Part shown: in pieces, positions 50,594 through 59,342 of the stretch
Layout: each line of letters starts with the position of its first letter
Position numbering within the stretch: position 1 is the stretch's first letter
DNA from: Caldilineaceae bacterium SB0661_bin_34
Lineage (GTDB): Bacteria > Chloroflexota > Anaerolineae > Caldilineales > Caldilineaceae
Assembly (NCBI GenBank): GCA_009841145.1
Contig: VXMJ01000093.1
Coordinates: 11,982-75,981 of the forward strand
Direction of reading: 5' to 3'
Length of the DNA stretch: 64,000 bases
Notes under the pieces: model-generated
What the model saw: the letters and a program-made list of their open reading frames with translations, nothing else
Databases searched by the model: none
What the model was told of the DNA's origin: nothing
Made by a program: the position numbers and the translations under genes

Positions 50594-50735
50594 GGCACTG
50601 TTTCAGTCTCGTTGATATTGGTTGCGGGCTGTCGTGGGCATATCCTCCGTATCAGTGGGTTCCGTGTCTCGCGTCAGGCCATGCTGCGGGCCATCAGGCA
50701 CACGAAGTTGAGGGTCCCCGCCTCGGACTTCGAGC
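50594..50735 (-). mobile_element. Solo right end of the IS at 52577-53616, opposite orientation
   Basis: ggcactgtttcagtctcgttgatattggttgcgggctgtcgtgggcatatcctccgtat..ctgcgggccatcaggcacacgaagttgagggtccccgcctc is nearly the reverse complement of 53480-53616. Confidence 0.85.
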
Positions 50736-50914
50736 CTTGGTACCCGCCACCCTACAACCCGGAACTGAACGATGTTGCGCACCCGTTCCGGAAGGTCAAG
50801 CCTTGGGGCTCTGCCCATGCCCATGCCCGACAGCTGACAGCCGTCGTGCAAGCCGGTTTCCAACGCCTCCGGGACCAGGTTGCGTCCGAACCTGCACCCA
50901 TGGCAGCTGTTTAG
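50736..50914 (+). pseudogene. IS630-like transposase C-terminal remnant
   Basis: EPWYPPPYNPELNDVAHPFRKVKPWGSAHAHARQLTAVVQAGFQRL resembles the IS630 PPYSPDLNPIE..F.K.K tail. Confidence 0.7.
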
Positions 50915-52362
50915 GGCTTGCAGGCATAGACACGCACGTATTCGAGTTCCATGCTCTGTGGCCAGATGTTGGGATCGATGCCTTTGGCAGCCGCCCAGTC
51001 ACCGCCCACATACAGGTTCAGGATGAGACGGAAAGGGTGGTCGAAAGGCCACTCTTTGTAGTTCGCTTCGGGATTCCACATCCGATCGTTCTTGAACACA
51101 AAGTAGGGAGTGTCGTCTGCATAGATCGTGATGGTGGACTCGGTCCATTCCACCGCGTATCGGTGGAAGGCGGTACTGGCATCCGGGAAGTGGAGCGTTT
51201 GGGCATCCAGTGTCTCGGTTCCAGCCCTGTTGCTGTAGACCACCGTGTGGATGTTGGCATGCACGATGCCGGGCTTGTGCCCCACGAATTCCATGATGTC
51301 GATTTCGCCGTTGTTCGGCCAGCCACCGTAGGGATCGGTATTGGAAACCATCCAGATGGCGGCCTTGGTCCCCCGCCCCGCGGGTAACCGGGCCGACATC
51401 TCGAACCATCCGTAGGTCCATGCCTGTCTGGAGGTCAGCCGGGGCACCGTGTATTCGCGACCACCGTACCCGTCCTTGTGGGCCTCCAGGATGAGGAGGC
51501 CATCCTCGACGCGCGCGTTGGCCTTCCGGTTGGCCGTTGTGTAGAAGAGCGCGTCCGGGTTCCAGTCGTTCTGGCGGGTGTCAAACCACCATCGGGAGCT
51601 GTCGGGCAGACCGTCCCGTTCGAATTCATCGGACCAGACCAGGGGACAAGGCACACCCGGGTCCACCGTAGGCGTGGCCGTGGGCACCGGCGTTGGCGGC
51701 GAAGGCTTCGGGGGGCCGGCCACCATGGGCAGAACTGCCCGGTGGTGCTCCGCCAGATCCGTGAGCGGTCCATAAATCCACAGGGGGCTTGCACCCCCCG
51801 TCGGATCCGAGATTCGCACCCAATCCCCCGCTGTGTTCAGGGCTTGGGCCTGCAACGGATCGCCCTGCCGCACCTGTGTGCGGACCGGGTAGTCGGTACC
51901 CGGCCCGATCCGGACGTTGACGACGGCACCGGTGACGGTGAGCACTATGGTGACCGGGGCGGGCGGCACCGGCGTGGTCTCAGGCAGAGCGGTTGGGACA
52001 GCCGCCACGGACAGGCTGTCCCGGAGCGCGGCGGTCAGATTGGTATGGTCAACGTGAATCCACAGGGTCCGGTCCTCATGGAGGACTTGGATCCACTCCC
52101 CGTCGCCATCGCGGCCCCGCACCGGGAGCCGGGTTCCCTGCACCACGCGGGTGGCGACGGGGTGCATCGGGCCGGGCCCCTCCCGCAGATTGGCAATCGA
52201 ATGCTGCGTGGTAGCCTCCAATGCGGGAACCAGGTCGGTGCAGGCGGCCATCAGGATGACCGGCAAACACCAAGAGGCCACTGTCCACAGCCATGACCGC
52301 CCAGCAGGCCACATGAGGGGCACGTTTCCCGGCAACTCCGGCCGGATTCGGAAACGCAACAT
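50911..52362 (-). CDS. SH3b-domain lipoprotein with GH16 family glycoside hydrolase domain
   Basis: Lipobox VILMAAC; GH16 active site NNGEIDIMEFVGHKPG; W..DEF start, GW FEMSARLP. Confidence 0.95.
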   Translation of the reverse strand: MLRFRIRPELPGNVPLMWPAGRSWLWTVASWCLPVILMAACTDLVPALEATTQHSIANLREGPGPMHPVATRVVQGTRLPVRGRDGDGEWIQVLHEDRTLWIHVDHTNLTAALRDSLSVAAVPTALPETTPVPPAPVTIVLTVTGAVVNVRIGPGTDYPVRTQVRQGDPLQAQALNTAGDWVRISDPTGGASPLWIYGPLTDLAEHHRAVLPMVAGPPKPSPPTPVPTATPTVDPGVPCPLVWSDEFERDGLPDSSRWWFDTRQNDWNPDALFYTTANRKANARVEDGLLILEAHKDGYGGREYTVPRLTSRQAWTYGWFEMSARLPAGRGTKAAIWMVSNTDPYGGWPNNGEIDIMEFVGHKPGIVHANIHTVVYSNRAGTETLDAQTLHFPDASTAFHRYAVEWTESTITIYADDTPYFVFKNDRMWNPEANYKEWPFDHPFRLILNLYVGGDWAAAKGIDPNIWPQSMELEYVRVYACKP

Positions 52363-52576
52363 CTGTCAGTATCCTCCTTGGAGCCAGCCCCGCCCGCCTT
52401 GTTGGGTTGGGATACCAGCCAGCCGGTGAAGGGCAGACCTGTTCCAAACTGAACCGGCCAATGCTCCCAACGAATTCGCAACGCGCGGGGCCACGCAGTC
52501 CGGACGGCAGTGCAGGCGGCAGGATCCCGAATTATTGCAACATGATCCCTTCCGCCCCAAACCCATTTGTGCCGAT

Positions 52577-53616
52577 GGCACCGTGGCAATCTCGTTGATA
52601 TTGGTGGCGGTCGCGCAAACACCAAGGAGAACCCTCGCCATGGACTTCATCCTGGTCCCGGCCGACCCCGAACGCCAACGGGCCCTGCCCGACGATCCGG
52701 GTGCCGGCCCCCAAGGCGGAGTCTGCGCCTGGCGGCACCACGGTACCTCCCCGCCACCTGGCCGTGCAAGGCCTGTCTGGGCCGCATCTTGCCCCTGCCG
52801 CCTGACGTGATCCCGCCAGCGGCCGCCGACCTTCCGGGAGCTGGTGGCCGACCTGTACGTGCCCTGTGTCAGTTTCCGAGGCCTGTCCCGCCTCCTGGCC
52901 CGACTGGGCTGCGGGGTGGGGGCCGCCACCCTATGGCGGGACGTGCAGGCGGTGGTCCCCGGTCTGGCGCCCGACCCGTGGGCGGACCTGCCACTGTGGG
53001 TCGAAGTGGACGAGACTTGGCTGTCCATCGGTGGTGAAGAGCGTCCGGTGGCGGGGTGGTCCTGGGGCCGGAGGGCGCACGGCTGGACCTGCGCCTCAGC
53101 GGTCCCGGCTTCGACCGGAGCGGCTGGTTCACAGGCTTGGCCGCGCGCGGGGTGCAGGGGCTGACGACCAACGACGAACCAGTCTACGGGCCCGGCCCGG
53201 GAGGCGGCAGGCCTGGGCCGACAACAATGTGCCCTGCGCCTTCAGCGCACCGTGGGGCGGCACATGCGGAGTATCGACGAGGACGACCTGACCCACCGGG
53301 ACCGGGTCCTGTCGCCCATCCTGCGACGCCTGGCCCGGGCGCGACCACCGGAGGCGGGGCCCGGTCCGTTGGCGCTCTGGGAGGTGGTGATAGGGGAACC
53401 CAAGGTGTCCGCCTATACCAACCGGTTGGAAGGCTGGTTTGGCCGCGTCAAGCCCCAAACCCGCCTGACGCGGGGGCTGCAGACCGAGGCGGGGACCCTC
53501 AACTTCGTGCGCCTGATGGCCCGCAGCATGGTCTGACGCGAGACACGGAGCCCAATGATACGGAGGATATGCCCACGACGGCCCGCAACCAATGTCAACG
53601 AGATTGAAACAGTGCC
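52577..53616 (+). mobile_element. Degenerate DDE insertion sequence with about 34-bp imperfect TIRs
   Basis: Left ggcaccgtggcaatctcgttgatattggtggcgg vs reverse complement of right ggcactgtttcaatctcgttgacattggttgcgg; transposase fragments LPLWVEVDETWLSIGGEERPVAGW and YTNRLEGWFGRVKPQTRLTRGLQTEAGTLNFVRLMARSMV in different frames. Confidence 0.8.
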
Positions 53617-56783: not shown

Positions 56784-57043
56784 CGACGGGCGGGATCGGA
56801 GCGGCAGACCCGTCTGCCACCGACCGTGTAGGCAACCCGTAGGTTGTTCGGAAGATACGCGTATGTTGCACTCCCGATCGATCGGCAGACTAGTCGTCTA
56901 TGTCACTTCAGCATGTTTTGCCACTGTTGATAGAATAGGAGTGTCCCAGTACAACTTTGGATGCCGCCGATGCCGATGATCGCGGGTTTCCTGGTATCCG
57001 GTACCGGGGGCATGCCTGTTTCAGCTGACAAAGGAGCGAGCTG

Positions 57044-57667
57044 ATGAACCGAATGAGGAAAACCGCCCGCAAGGTGATGGCATTCATCTTGGTGTTCACC
57101 CTGTTGTCCTTGAGCTTGCCGGTTGCGACGCCGGTGCTGGCTCAGGACATGATGTCCTGCGACGAGATGTCGGCCATGGCCATGTCGACTCTGGACATGA
57201 TGCAGGGTATGTCCGCCGATGAACTGGCGGCCATGGCTTCCATGGGGCTGAGCATGGTGGATGCGATGGGGGCGGACCAGACCATGGCTATGGCCGTGAT
57301 GGGAGCCGACCTGCTGTCGTCATTCGTGATGGATATATCCGGCCTGCTCGTGGGCTTATCCGAGGACCTGTTGGGTGACATGATCCTGATGGGGCTCGCC
57401 ACTGCCGGCATTGACTCCTTCCCCTGGATGAGCGTCGAAGAGATGGCTTCCATGGCTTCCATGGGCATTTCCATGGTGGAAGGGATGAGTTCGGCCGAGA
57501 TGGCGGGCATGGCCATGATGGGCCTGGATATGGCCATGGCCATGTCTGCGGCGGACATGGCAGCCTTCGCGGCCGTGGGCCTCGACATGCTGGCTGGCGT
57601 GCCTGCAGGGCAGCTGGAAGCAGCCGTGGCGATGGGCGTGGACATGTTCTGCGGCATGATGATGTAG
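57044..57667 (+). CDS. Exported methionine-rich repeat protein of unknown function
   Basis: aaaggagcg RBS; signal peptide ending LSLPVATPVLAQ; mature region with 38 Met and no K/R/H. Confidence 0.8.
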   Translation: MNRMRKTARKVMAFILVFTLLSLSLPVATPVLAQDMMSCDEMSAMAMSTLDMMQGMSADELAAMASMGLSMVDAMGADQTMAMAVMGADLLSSFVMDISGLLVGLSEDLLGDMILMGLATAGIDSFPWMSVEEMASMASMGISMVEGMSSAEMAGMAMMGLDMAMAMSAADMAAFAAVGLDMLAGVPAGQLEAAVAMGVDMFCGMMM

Positions 57668-58500: not shown

Positions 58501-59342
58501 TCAGCAGCTCAGGGATCCTTGGGGGTATGCCCTTGCCGCTGCAGCAGGACCTGGAGCCGTGTGATCTCCGCCTCTGCTTCCCGTACCCGTGCAGCTTCCC
58601 GGTCTGCCCGCGCGGCTTCCCGGTCTGCCCGCGCGGCTTCCTGGTCTGCCCGTGTGGCTTCCTGGTCTGCCCGTGTGGCTTCCTTCTCGTGGGCCGTCCC
58701 GGCTTCCTGCACCGTCAGATACCACCTCCGCTGCACCGGGTTCCACAACCGCAGAATACCGGTGGTCATGTCCAGCCCCCAGTCCGTATCCAGAACGGAA
58801 CTCCGTCCAATCAACGCTCCGCGCGGGCTGTCGGGCTGCAGGGGGATGGGGACATAGGTGCCGTCCCGCAGCTGCCAGCCCAGCAAATCCTCGGTCAGAT
58901 ACTGGTGGTGGGGGTCGTACTGCCAATATTCGGGAATGCCCAAGGCGGCGTAGCGTTCCCACTTGAGGCTGCTGTCCTGGGGGTGGGTGGAGGGCGAAGC
59001 CATTTCCATGACCAGGTCCGGCACTTTCCCGTACACCCAGGGTGCATAGCCCTCCTCGCCCGGCACTGCCACTTCGTAGGCCAGCAACACATCGGGTGCC
59101 ACATAGGCCGTCAGATTGGCGGGATCGTAGTACAGGGCACAATTGCCCCGAACCGTGCCCGCACGACCCAACTGCCGCAGATGCATCTTCAGAGCAAAGA
59201 CGGCATCGGTGATGGCATGGTACTGGAGTTCGGTGTCGGCCATGGGTTCATCGTCATCGGACGGGTACCGGATCCCCGACTCCTGCGGGGGATCTCTTAG
59301 GACCACGTCGTCCCAGCCGTTCCGGTCTCGGGTCAGTGCCAT
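58501..59342 (-). CDS. Uma2-family (DUF820) PD-(D/E)XK nuclease-like protein with C-terminal coiled coil
   Basis: ALYYDPANLTAYVAPDVLLAYEVAVPG...PDLVMEMASPSTHPQDSSLKWERYAALGIPEYWQYDP. Confidence 0.9.
58594..58677 (-). repeat. 21-bp in-frame tandem repeat (4 copies) encoding EA(T/A)RAD(Q/R)
   Basis: gcttcccggtctgcccgcgcg x2 then gcttcctggtctgcccgtgtg x2. Confidence 0.9.

Follow-up and report, generated by a model that had tools for sequence, protein, structure and literature searches.

Helices of the SRP54 M domain and of calmodulin, neither of which is an exported protein, carry Met-rich hydrophobic surfaces. Beyond the cytoplasm, SilE acts as a periplasmic Ag+ sponge through Met/His motifs (PMC5008109), is disordered when metal-free and is encoded in the sil operon; together with PcoE it represents the periplasmic Ag+/Cu sponges. 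The Met-rich helix region of the multicopper oxidase CueO, an insert within that enzyme, contributes to a labile Cu site whose ligands are two Met and two Asp (PMC6155172). MrpX of Azospira suillum and BcrX of Brucella (the BcrXQP system) are exported, very Met-rich proteins without known enzymatic domain that are associated with the MsrPQ methionine sulfoxide reductase system (PMC8315932); they carry MXKDX repeats, and their genes share one operon with msrP, along with an ECF sigma/anti-sigma pair. MsrPQ also serves the E. coli copper chaperone CusF, whose Mets it maintains in the reduced form (PMC9302797).

Here we describe a gene whose product shares some feature with each of these systems, found in a 64,000-nucleotide stretch of a Caldilineaceae genome of 4.34 Mb (this whole stretch is hereafter the window). 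The encoded protein is organized as follows:

57044..57667, + strand: gene for an exported Met-stripe repeat protein, 207 aa (ORF translation, orthologue alignment, Ka/Ks)
57044..57145, + strand: Sec-type signal peptide, aa 1-34 (read from the sequence; kept in 4/4 orthologues)
57146..57664, + strand: mature acidic Met-rich region, 173 aa (eight 19-aa repeats, predicted helical; 8 AlphaFold2 helices at matching places, low confidence)
57158..57160, + strand: Cys39, directly before repeat 1, invariant in orthologues
aa 40-58, 59-77, 78-96, 108-126, 132-150, 151-169, 170-188 and 189-207, + strand: the eight repeats (self-comparison, repeat layout)
57650..57652, + strand: Cys203, within repeat 8, invariant in orthologues

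The first-pass annotation had the coordinates, frame and composition of this gene right. Its signal peptide is typical in sequence (MNRMRKTARKVMAFILVFTLLSLSLPVATPVLAQ), with cleavage probably after ...VLAQ (aa 34) or ...VLA (aa 33), and the mature part of 173 aa contains 38 Met (22%), 31 Ala, 23 Asp/Glu and 2 Cys, with a computed mass of 17.7 kDa, pI of 4.05, GRAVY of +0.85 and net charge of about -23. Lys, Arg, His, Tyr and Asn are all absent from the mature part of the window protein. The same annotation's statement that basic residues are lacking thus stands for this copy, but not for the most diverged orthologue (L007), which has an Arg at aa 165. Of 1162 ORFs with 80 aa or more in 386 kb of the same genome, the Met fraction of the full-length product (0.198) is the highest, as compared with a mean of 0.023 (sd 0.016) for ORFs of at least 150 aa in the same 386 kb, and its K/R/H-free run of 197 aa is by far the longest (runner-up 116). 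Next in Met content within this DNA comes a frame (L072:799, + strand, 135 aa, 13% Met) with a small, hydrophobic, membrane-protein-like sequence. The two Cys could possibly form a disulfide (Cys39-Cys203). Lipoprotein anchoring via Cys39 was considered and rejected, because MMSC is not a lipobox and lies ~5 residues past the probable cleavage site.

Comparison with the known systems gives partial likenesses only. As with MrpX and BcrX, the protein is exported, very Met-rich and without known enzymatic domain, and an MsrPQ-type pair is encoded in the same genome; unlike them, it has no Lys in its mature part, no MXKDX repeats and no NCBIfam or other sequence match, its Mets sit at a fixed register within repeats predicted to be helical, and its gene is linked neither to msrPQ nor, in the neighbourhood seen, to an ECF sigma factor (msrP lies on contig C46, this gene on C53 among GH32, Uma2 and sugar ABC transporter genes). 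The likeness to SilE and PcoE lies in a small exported Met-rich protein made of repeated motifs, but His is absent here, the repeat is predicted to be helical, no metal operon surrounds the gene, and no Pfam, NCBIfam or PDB sequence match was obtained. With CueO it shares Met-rich, Asp-containing helices, although here the whole protein would consist of such helices, without cupredoxin domains (no Pfam match). Met-lined hydrophobic helix surfaces recall the SRP54 M domain and calmodulin, which have other folds and gave no Pfam, PDB or Foldseek match here.

The Met pattern whose recurrence had been noticed from the sequence is a true 19-aa period. Self-identity at lag 19 is 0.338, above all 2000 shuffles (maximum 0.227 at this lag), and no shuffle reached 0.338 at any lag from 10 to 60. 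The eight repeats (e.g., EEMASMASMGISMVEGMSS and AEMAGMAMMGLDMAMAMSA) have a mean pairwise identity of 33%, with Gly at column 10 in 7/8 repeats and Glu, Asp or Gln at column 2, adjoining the Met stripe described below, also in 7/8. AlphaFold2 places 8 helices on the repeats, at low confidence (mean pLDDT 54 with the signal peptide, 66 without), and a Foldseek search of the pLDDT-54 model against PDB and BFVD returned no match at E <= 0.001. Alpha-solenoids (MgtE_N-like and others) gave no Pfam match, nor any Foldseek match for this single model. We infer eight short helices, each with an acidic, an aliphatic/small (packing) and a Met face.

On a 100-degree helical wheel, 27/35 repeat Mets fall in columns 3, 6, 9, 13 and 17, which form a stripe over an arc of about 180-300 degrees; these columns were chosen from the window sequence itself and duplicated repeats share columns by descent, so that repeat duplication alone could generate part of the pattern. 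Column 11 is Leu, Ile or Val in 7/8 repeats and Met in none, Met and L/I/V/F point different ways on average (233 vs. 336 degrees, permutation p = 0.0007), and the acidic residues occupy a third side of the helix (127 degrees). The orthologue comparison, with four sequences of which three are very close, is a more independent test than the column pattern: 26/27 register Mets are invariant, vs. 5/10 other Mets (Fisher p = 0.003). The sole register Met lost is M83V/I, and the off-register losses (M47I, M96V, M129I, M158V and M165R) are exchanges for Ile, Val or Arg.

The first-pass annotation had named free replacement of Met by Leu or Ile as the mark of a simple hydrophobic helix repeat. In an ordinary repeat of this kind, Met would merely replace Leu and have no specific role. 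The Met/Ile/Val exchanges at positions 47, 83, 96, 129 and 158, and the Met gains at 85, 175, 194 and 196, are what such a repeat might show. However, the exchanges concern mostly off-register Mets; the aliphatic and Met faces segregate, the total Met count is held at 35-39, and no Met-to-Leu change occurs among the four orthologues even though Ka is several-fold that of the neighbours. Since 26 of the 27 register Mets are invariant and Met-to-Leu changes are absent, Met and Leu are not freely interchangeable here, and we regard an ordinary helical repeat as quite improbable. The Mets thus appear to be selected by position, and their thioethers therefore probably matter.

A conserved register of this kind is in line with a binding surface, for either soft metals (thioethers plus neighbouring carboxylates) or hydrophobic partners. 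In the latter case, flexible Met stripes would form a groove or surface for peptides, lipids or copies of the protein itself, by analogy with the SRP54 M domain and calmodulin. Amphipathic helices in which the Met register is conserved as structural residues are, and the acidic and hydrophobic character of the protein, would suit such a scaffold, as would the spacing of the Mets: pairs 3 or 4 residues apart are unenriched over composition, so that a discrete metal motif of the MxxM type is not demonstrated. On the other hand, the Met content is far above that of the two analogues, an exported Met surface would be prone to oxidation, and PDB and BFVD offer no fold similarity, albeit from a poor model. 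We consider a hydrophobic-binding scaffold somewhat doubtful, and rank it second.

An oxidant-scavenging role, also put forward in the first pass together with a suggested check for an adjacent methionine sulfoxide reductase in relatives, calls for an account of the repair genes. None lies beside the gene. In this genome, one MsrA was found and MsrB (SelR) had no match, while contig C46 carries msrP (C46:51463-52419, L059) followed directly by an msrQ-like gene. NCBIfam gives MsrP at 413 bits (cut-off 207), and the second protein has the NCBIfam MsrQ model as its best match, at 87 bits, below the cut-off of 130. Judging from its start (MNRRRF...LIAAC), this MsrP may be exported by the Tat route and carry a lipid anchor; with its Tat-like and lipobox-like N-terminus (RRRFMRATG...LIAAC), it is a candidate lipid-anchored MsrP. 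A promoter motif common to the Met-rich gene and msrP was sought, and only a 12-mer shared with coding-like sequence emerged. MsrP is present in 4/4 congeners and in 42/61 genomes searched among the relatives, and is therefore enabling rather than specific. Given the upkeep of CusF by MsrPQ in E. coli, the presence of this pair suits a metal-binding protein and an oxidant sink alike.

A sacrificial sink of the MrpX/BcrX kind, in which surface Mets would consume HOCl, HOBr or H2O2 and be regenerated by MsrPQ, would account for the 22% Met and for the absence of Lys, His, Tyr and Arg, residues that hypohalous acids would otherwise modify; it has precedents in Azospira and Brucella, the MsrPQ-type pair is at hand, and one congener (bin34) was obtained from the sponge Aplysina aerophoba (PMC5649159). 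However, a sink should ignore the Met register and retain the number and exposure of its Mets, and the reverse is observed: the off-register Mets, expected to be the more exposed, are those that are lost. Moreover, msrP is on another contig whereas mrpX and bcrX share its operon, the nearby genes examined include no ECF sigma pair, and the protein is not of the Lys-containing MXKDX type. This weakens the case for a simple sink, which we judge unlikely.

We next consider where the gene occurs. Among 100 relatives it is carried by its own genus only, in 4/4 genomes including the window's own; the named copies come from metagenome-assembled genomes of Caldilineaceae/Caldilineales. Since it sits at the same place in all four congeneric genomes, with Ka/Ks of 0.11-0.33 over the whole gene, it is a genuine gene that has been inherited vertically under purifying selection. 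Its mature part is nonetheless fast-changing, with a Ka of 0.10 relative to L007 vs. 0.001-0.016 for neighbouring genes. Beyond the four congeneric copies, nothing was recovered by profiles run against the genomes of the class (396) and of the phylum Chloroflexota (400) or by degenerate-pattern scans of genome and viral contigs, tblastn against phages and plasmids gave no relative, and a DNA pattern for MAxMAxMG picked up no Met-rich relative. Weak class matches (E 0.001-0.1) were, where inspected, to the signal peptide, to MgtE or to other or spurious frames, and none was a Met-rich relative. Pfam, NCBIfam, PHROGs, PADLOC and PDB sequences likewise gave no match to the Met-rich protein. The gene is a taxonomically restricted orphan whose repeat matches no searched library, in agreement with the initial remark that no family could be recognized.

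The locus is conserved as far as contigs reach, with a GH32 gene upstream and Uma2 and sugar ABC transporter genes downstream. Around it, the window shows several other features. The Uma2 protein has C-terminal heptad-like repeats (58560-58680, ADREAARADREAARA) that seem length-variable between species, as identity falls and gaps appear over this interval. An IS605-type TnpB (OrfB) gene lies within a ~1.6-kb insertion (~59390-60997), which is probably recent because L005 and L007 have the two flanking sequences directly joined. A further insertion of ~3.0 kb (50594-53616), missing from the three orthologous loci, is bounded exactly by 136-nt inverted repeats (50594-50729 / 53481-53616, 94% complementary) and contains an SH3-GH16 glycoside hydrolase gene (50911-52362, minus strand) and transposase-like frames; it resembles a transposable element that carries a glycanase as cargo.

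The gene is also flanked by the following non-coding and possible minor coding elements:

56926..57043, + strand: hyperconserved 5' leader, 118 nt, from a TAGAAT -10-like hexamer, with two predicted isoenergetic folds
56970..57044, + strand: possible 24-aa upstream ORF, its TGA overlapping the main ATG (TGATG), open in 4/4 orthologues
57021..57044, + strand: predicted 6-bp hairpin UCAGCU/AGCUGA, with the Shine-Dalgarno sequence AAAGGAG (57030-57036) in its loop
57746..57783, + strand: 17-bp hairpin 3' of the gene, probable terminator, pairing kept across species

The leader is 97-98% identical in the four species (2-3 changes per 120 nt), with similar conservation over the first ~100 nt of the coding region, vs. 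61-88% identity in 60-base windows of the intergenic DNA immediately upstream. Neighbouring genes of the same species have Ks of 0.13-0.25, and at a neutral difference rate of 0.12-0.2 the probability of 3 or fewer changes in 120 is 2e-4 to 1e-8. Transcription would start at the TAGAAT hexamer, a start placed from the sequence; a promoter scan gave no sigma-70 match. Two alternative folds have nearly equal computed energies (A -35.6 and B -35.5 kcal/mol) in 3/4 species, with a shuffle z-score of just -1.5 and changes too few for covariation. The leader is single copy and confined to the genus, Rfam returned no significant match for it, and matches to leader fragments (GATGCCGCCGATGCCGATG) in other genomes were set aside as short matches due to chance. 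An antisense ORF (56908-57099) as the cause of this conservation is disfavoured, since its GTG start reads Glu in L007, although the frame is open in 4/4. The 24-aa upstream ORF, with one G-to-D and one silent change and no convincing RBS across the four orthologues, may be due to chance. Overall, the leader looks like a cis-regulatory RNA, and is a separate candidate in its own right.

Of the expression signals proposed in the first pass, the gene's own RBS is present (AAAGGAG); the 6-bp hairpin immediately before the start codon is predicted in 4/4 orthologues with this Shine-Dalgarno sequence mostly unpaired (one loop change, in L005). The strong terminator is only partly borne out: the 3' hairpin is conserved, with 98.5% of cells paired and 2 pairs changed on both sides (compensatory changes not significant vs. 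shuffles, 91/500), but it has a weak U-tract and received no score in the terminator scan. It is probably a transcription terminator all the same.

We tentatively prefer to see the product as an exported Met/carboxylate buffer for Cu(I) or Ag(I), with Mets repairable by the MsrPQ-type pair, since the Met stripe is separate from the L/I/V/F face, the register Mets are fixed, column-2 Glu, Asp or Gln adjoins the stripe, and CueO, SilE and the MsrPQ upkeep of CusF provide precedents. Under this proposal, eight short helices would fold with acidic, packing and Met faces, and their aligned thioethers and carboxylates would bind extracytoplasmic Cu(I) or Ag(I), making the protein a buffer or sponge for metal. 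A Cys39-Cys203 disulfide would tie the protein ends together, extracytoplasmic MsrPQ would keep the Mets reduced, and the leader RNA would be the probable control point of production. Several observations go against it. No copper or silver genes occur among the examined neighbours (GH32, Fic, Uma2, TnpB, sugar ABC transporter), SilE-type sponges also employ His and are disordered without bound metal whereas this protein is hydrophobic and His-free, the Met-Met spacing is unenriched and the structure model of low confidence, and no retention signal was identified, so that a freely secreted buffer could be lost; the widespread MsrP is weak evidence in its favour. Of the two roles initially suggested, Cu(I)/Ag(I) binding is thus slightly favoured and the simple oxidant sink weakened. 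Our order of preference runs from the soft-metal buffer through the hydrophobic scaffold and the sink to a repeat in which Met has no specific role, with some room left for other functions.

It is tempting to speculate that a Met-stripe helical repeat with conserved working thioethers, rather than His or Cys, found in one Caldilineaceae genus and under the control of a bistable, likewise undescribed leader RNA, is an undescribed architecture, which we put forward as a possibility. If Cu(I) or Ag(I) is bound, the protein would be a thioether metal sponge that has a regular 19-aa repeat, lacks His and is poor in Cys, and its presence would suggest that uncultivated bacteria, sponge-associated at least in part, handle metals or oxidants; if instead the protein is a hydrophobic scaffold, it would be an exported analogue of Met-bristle proteins. 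On either reading, it offers a clean test case for register-conserved Met in a secreted protein.
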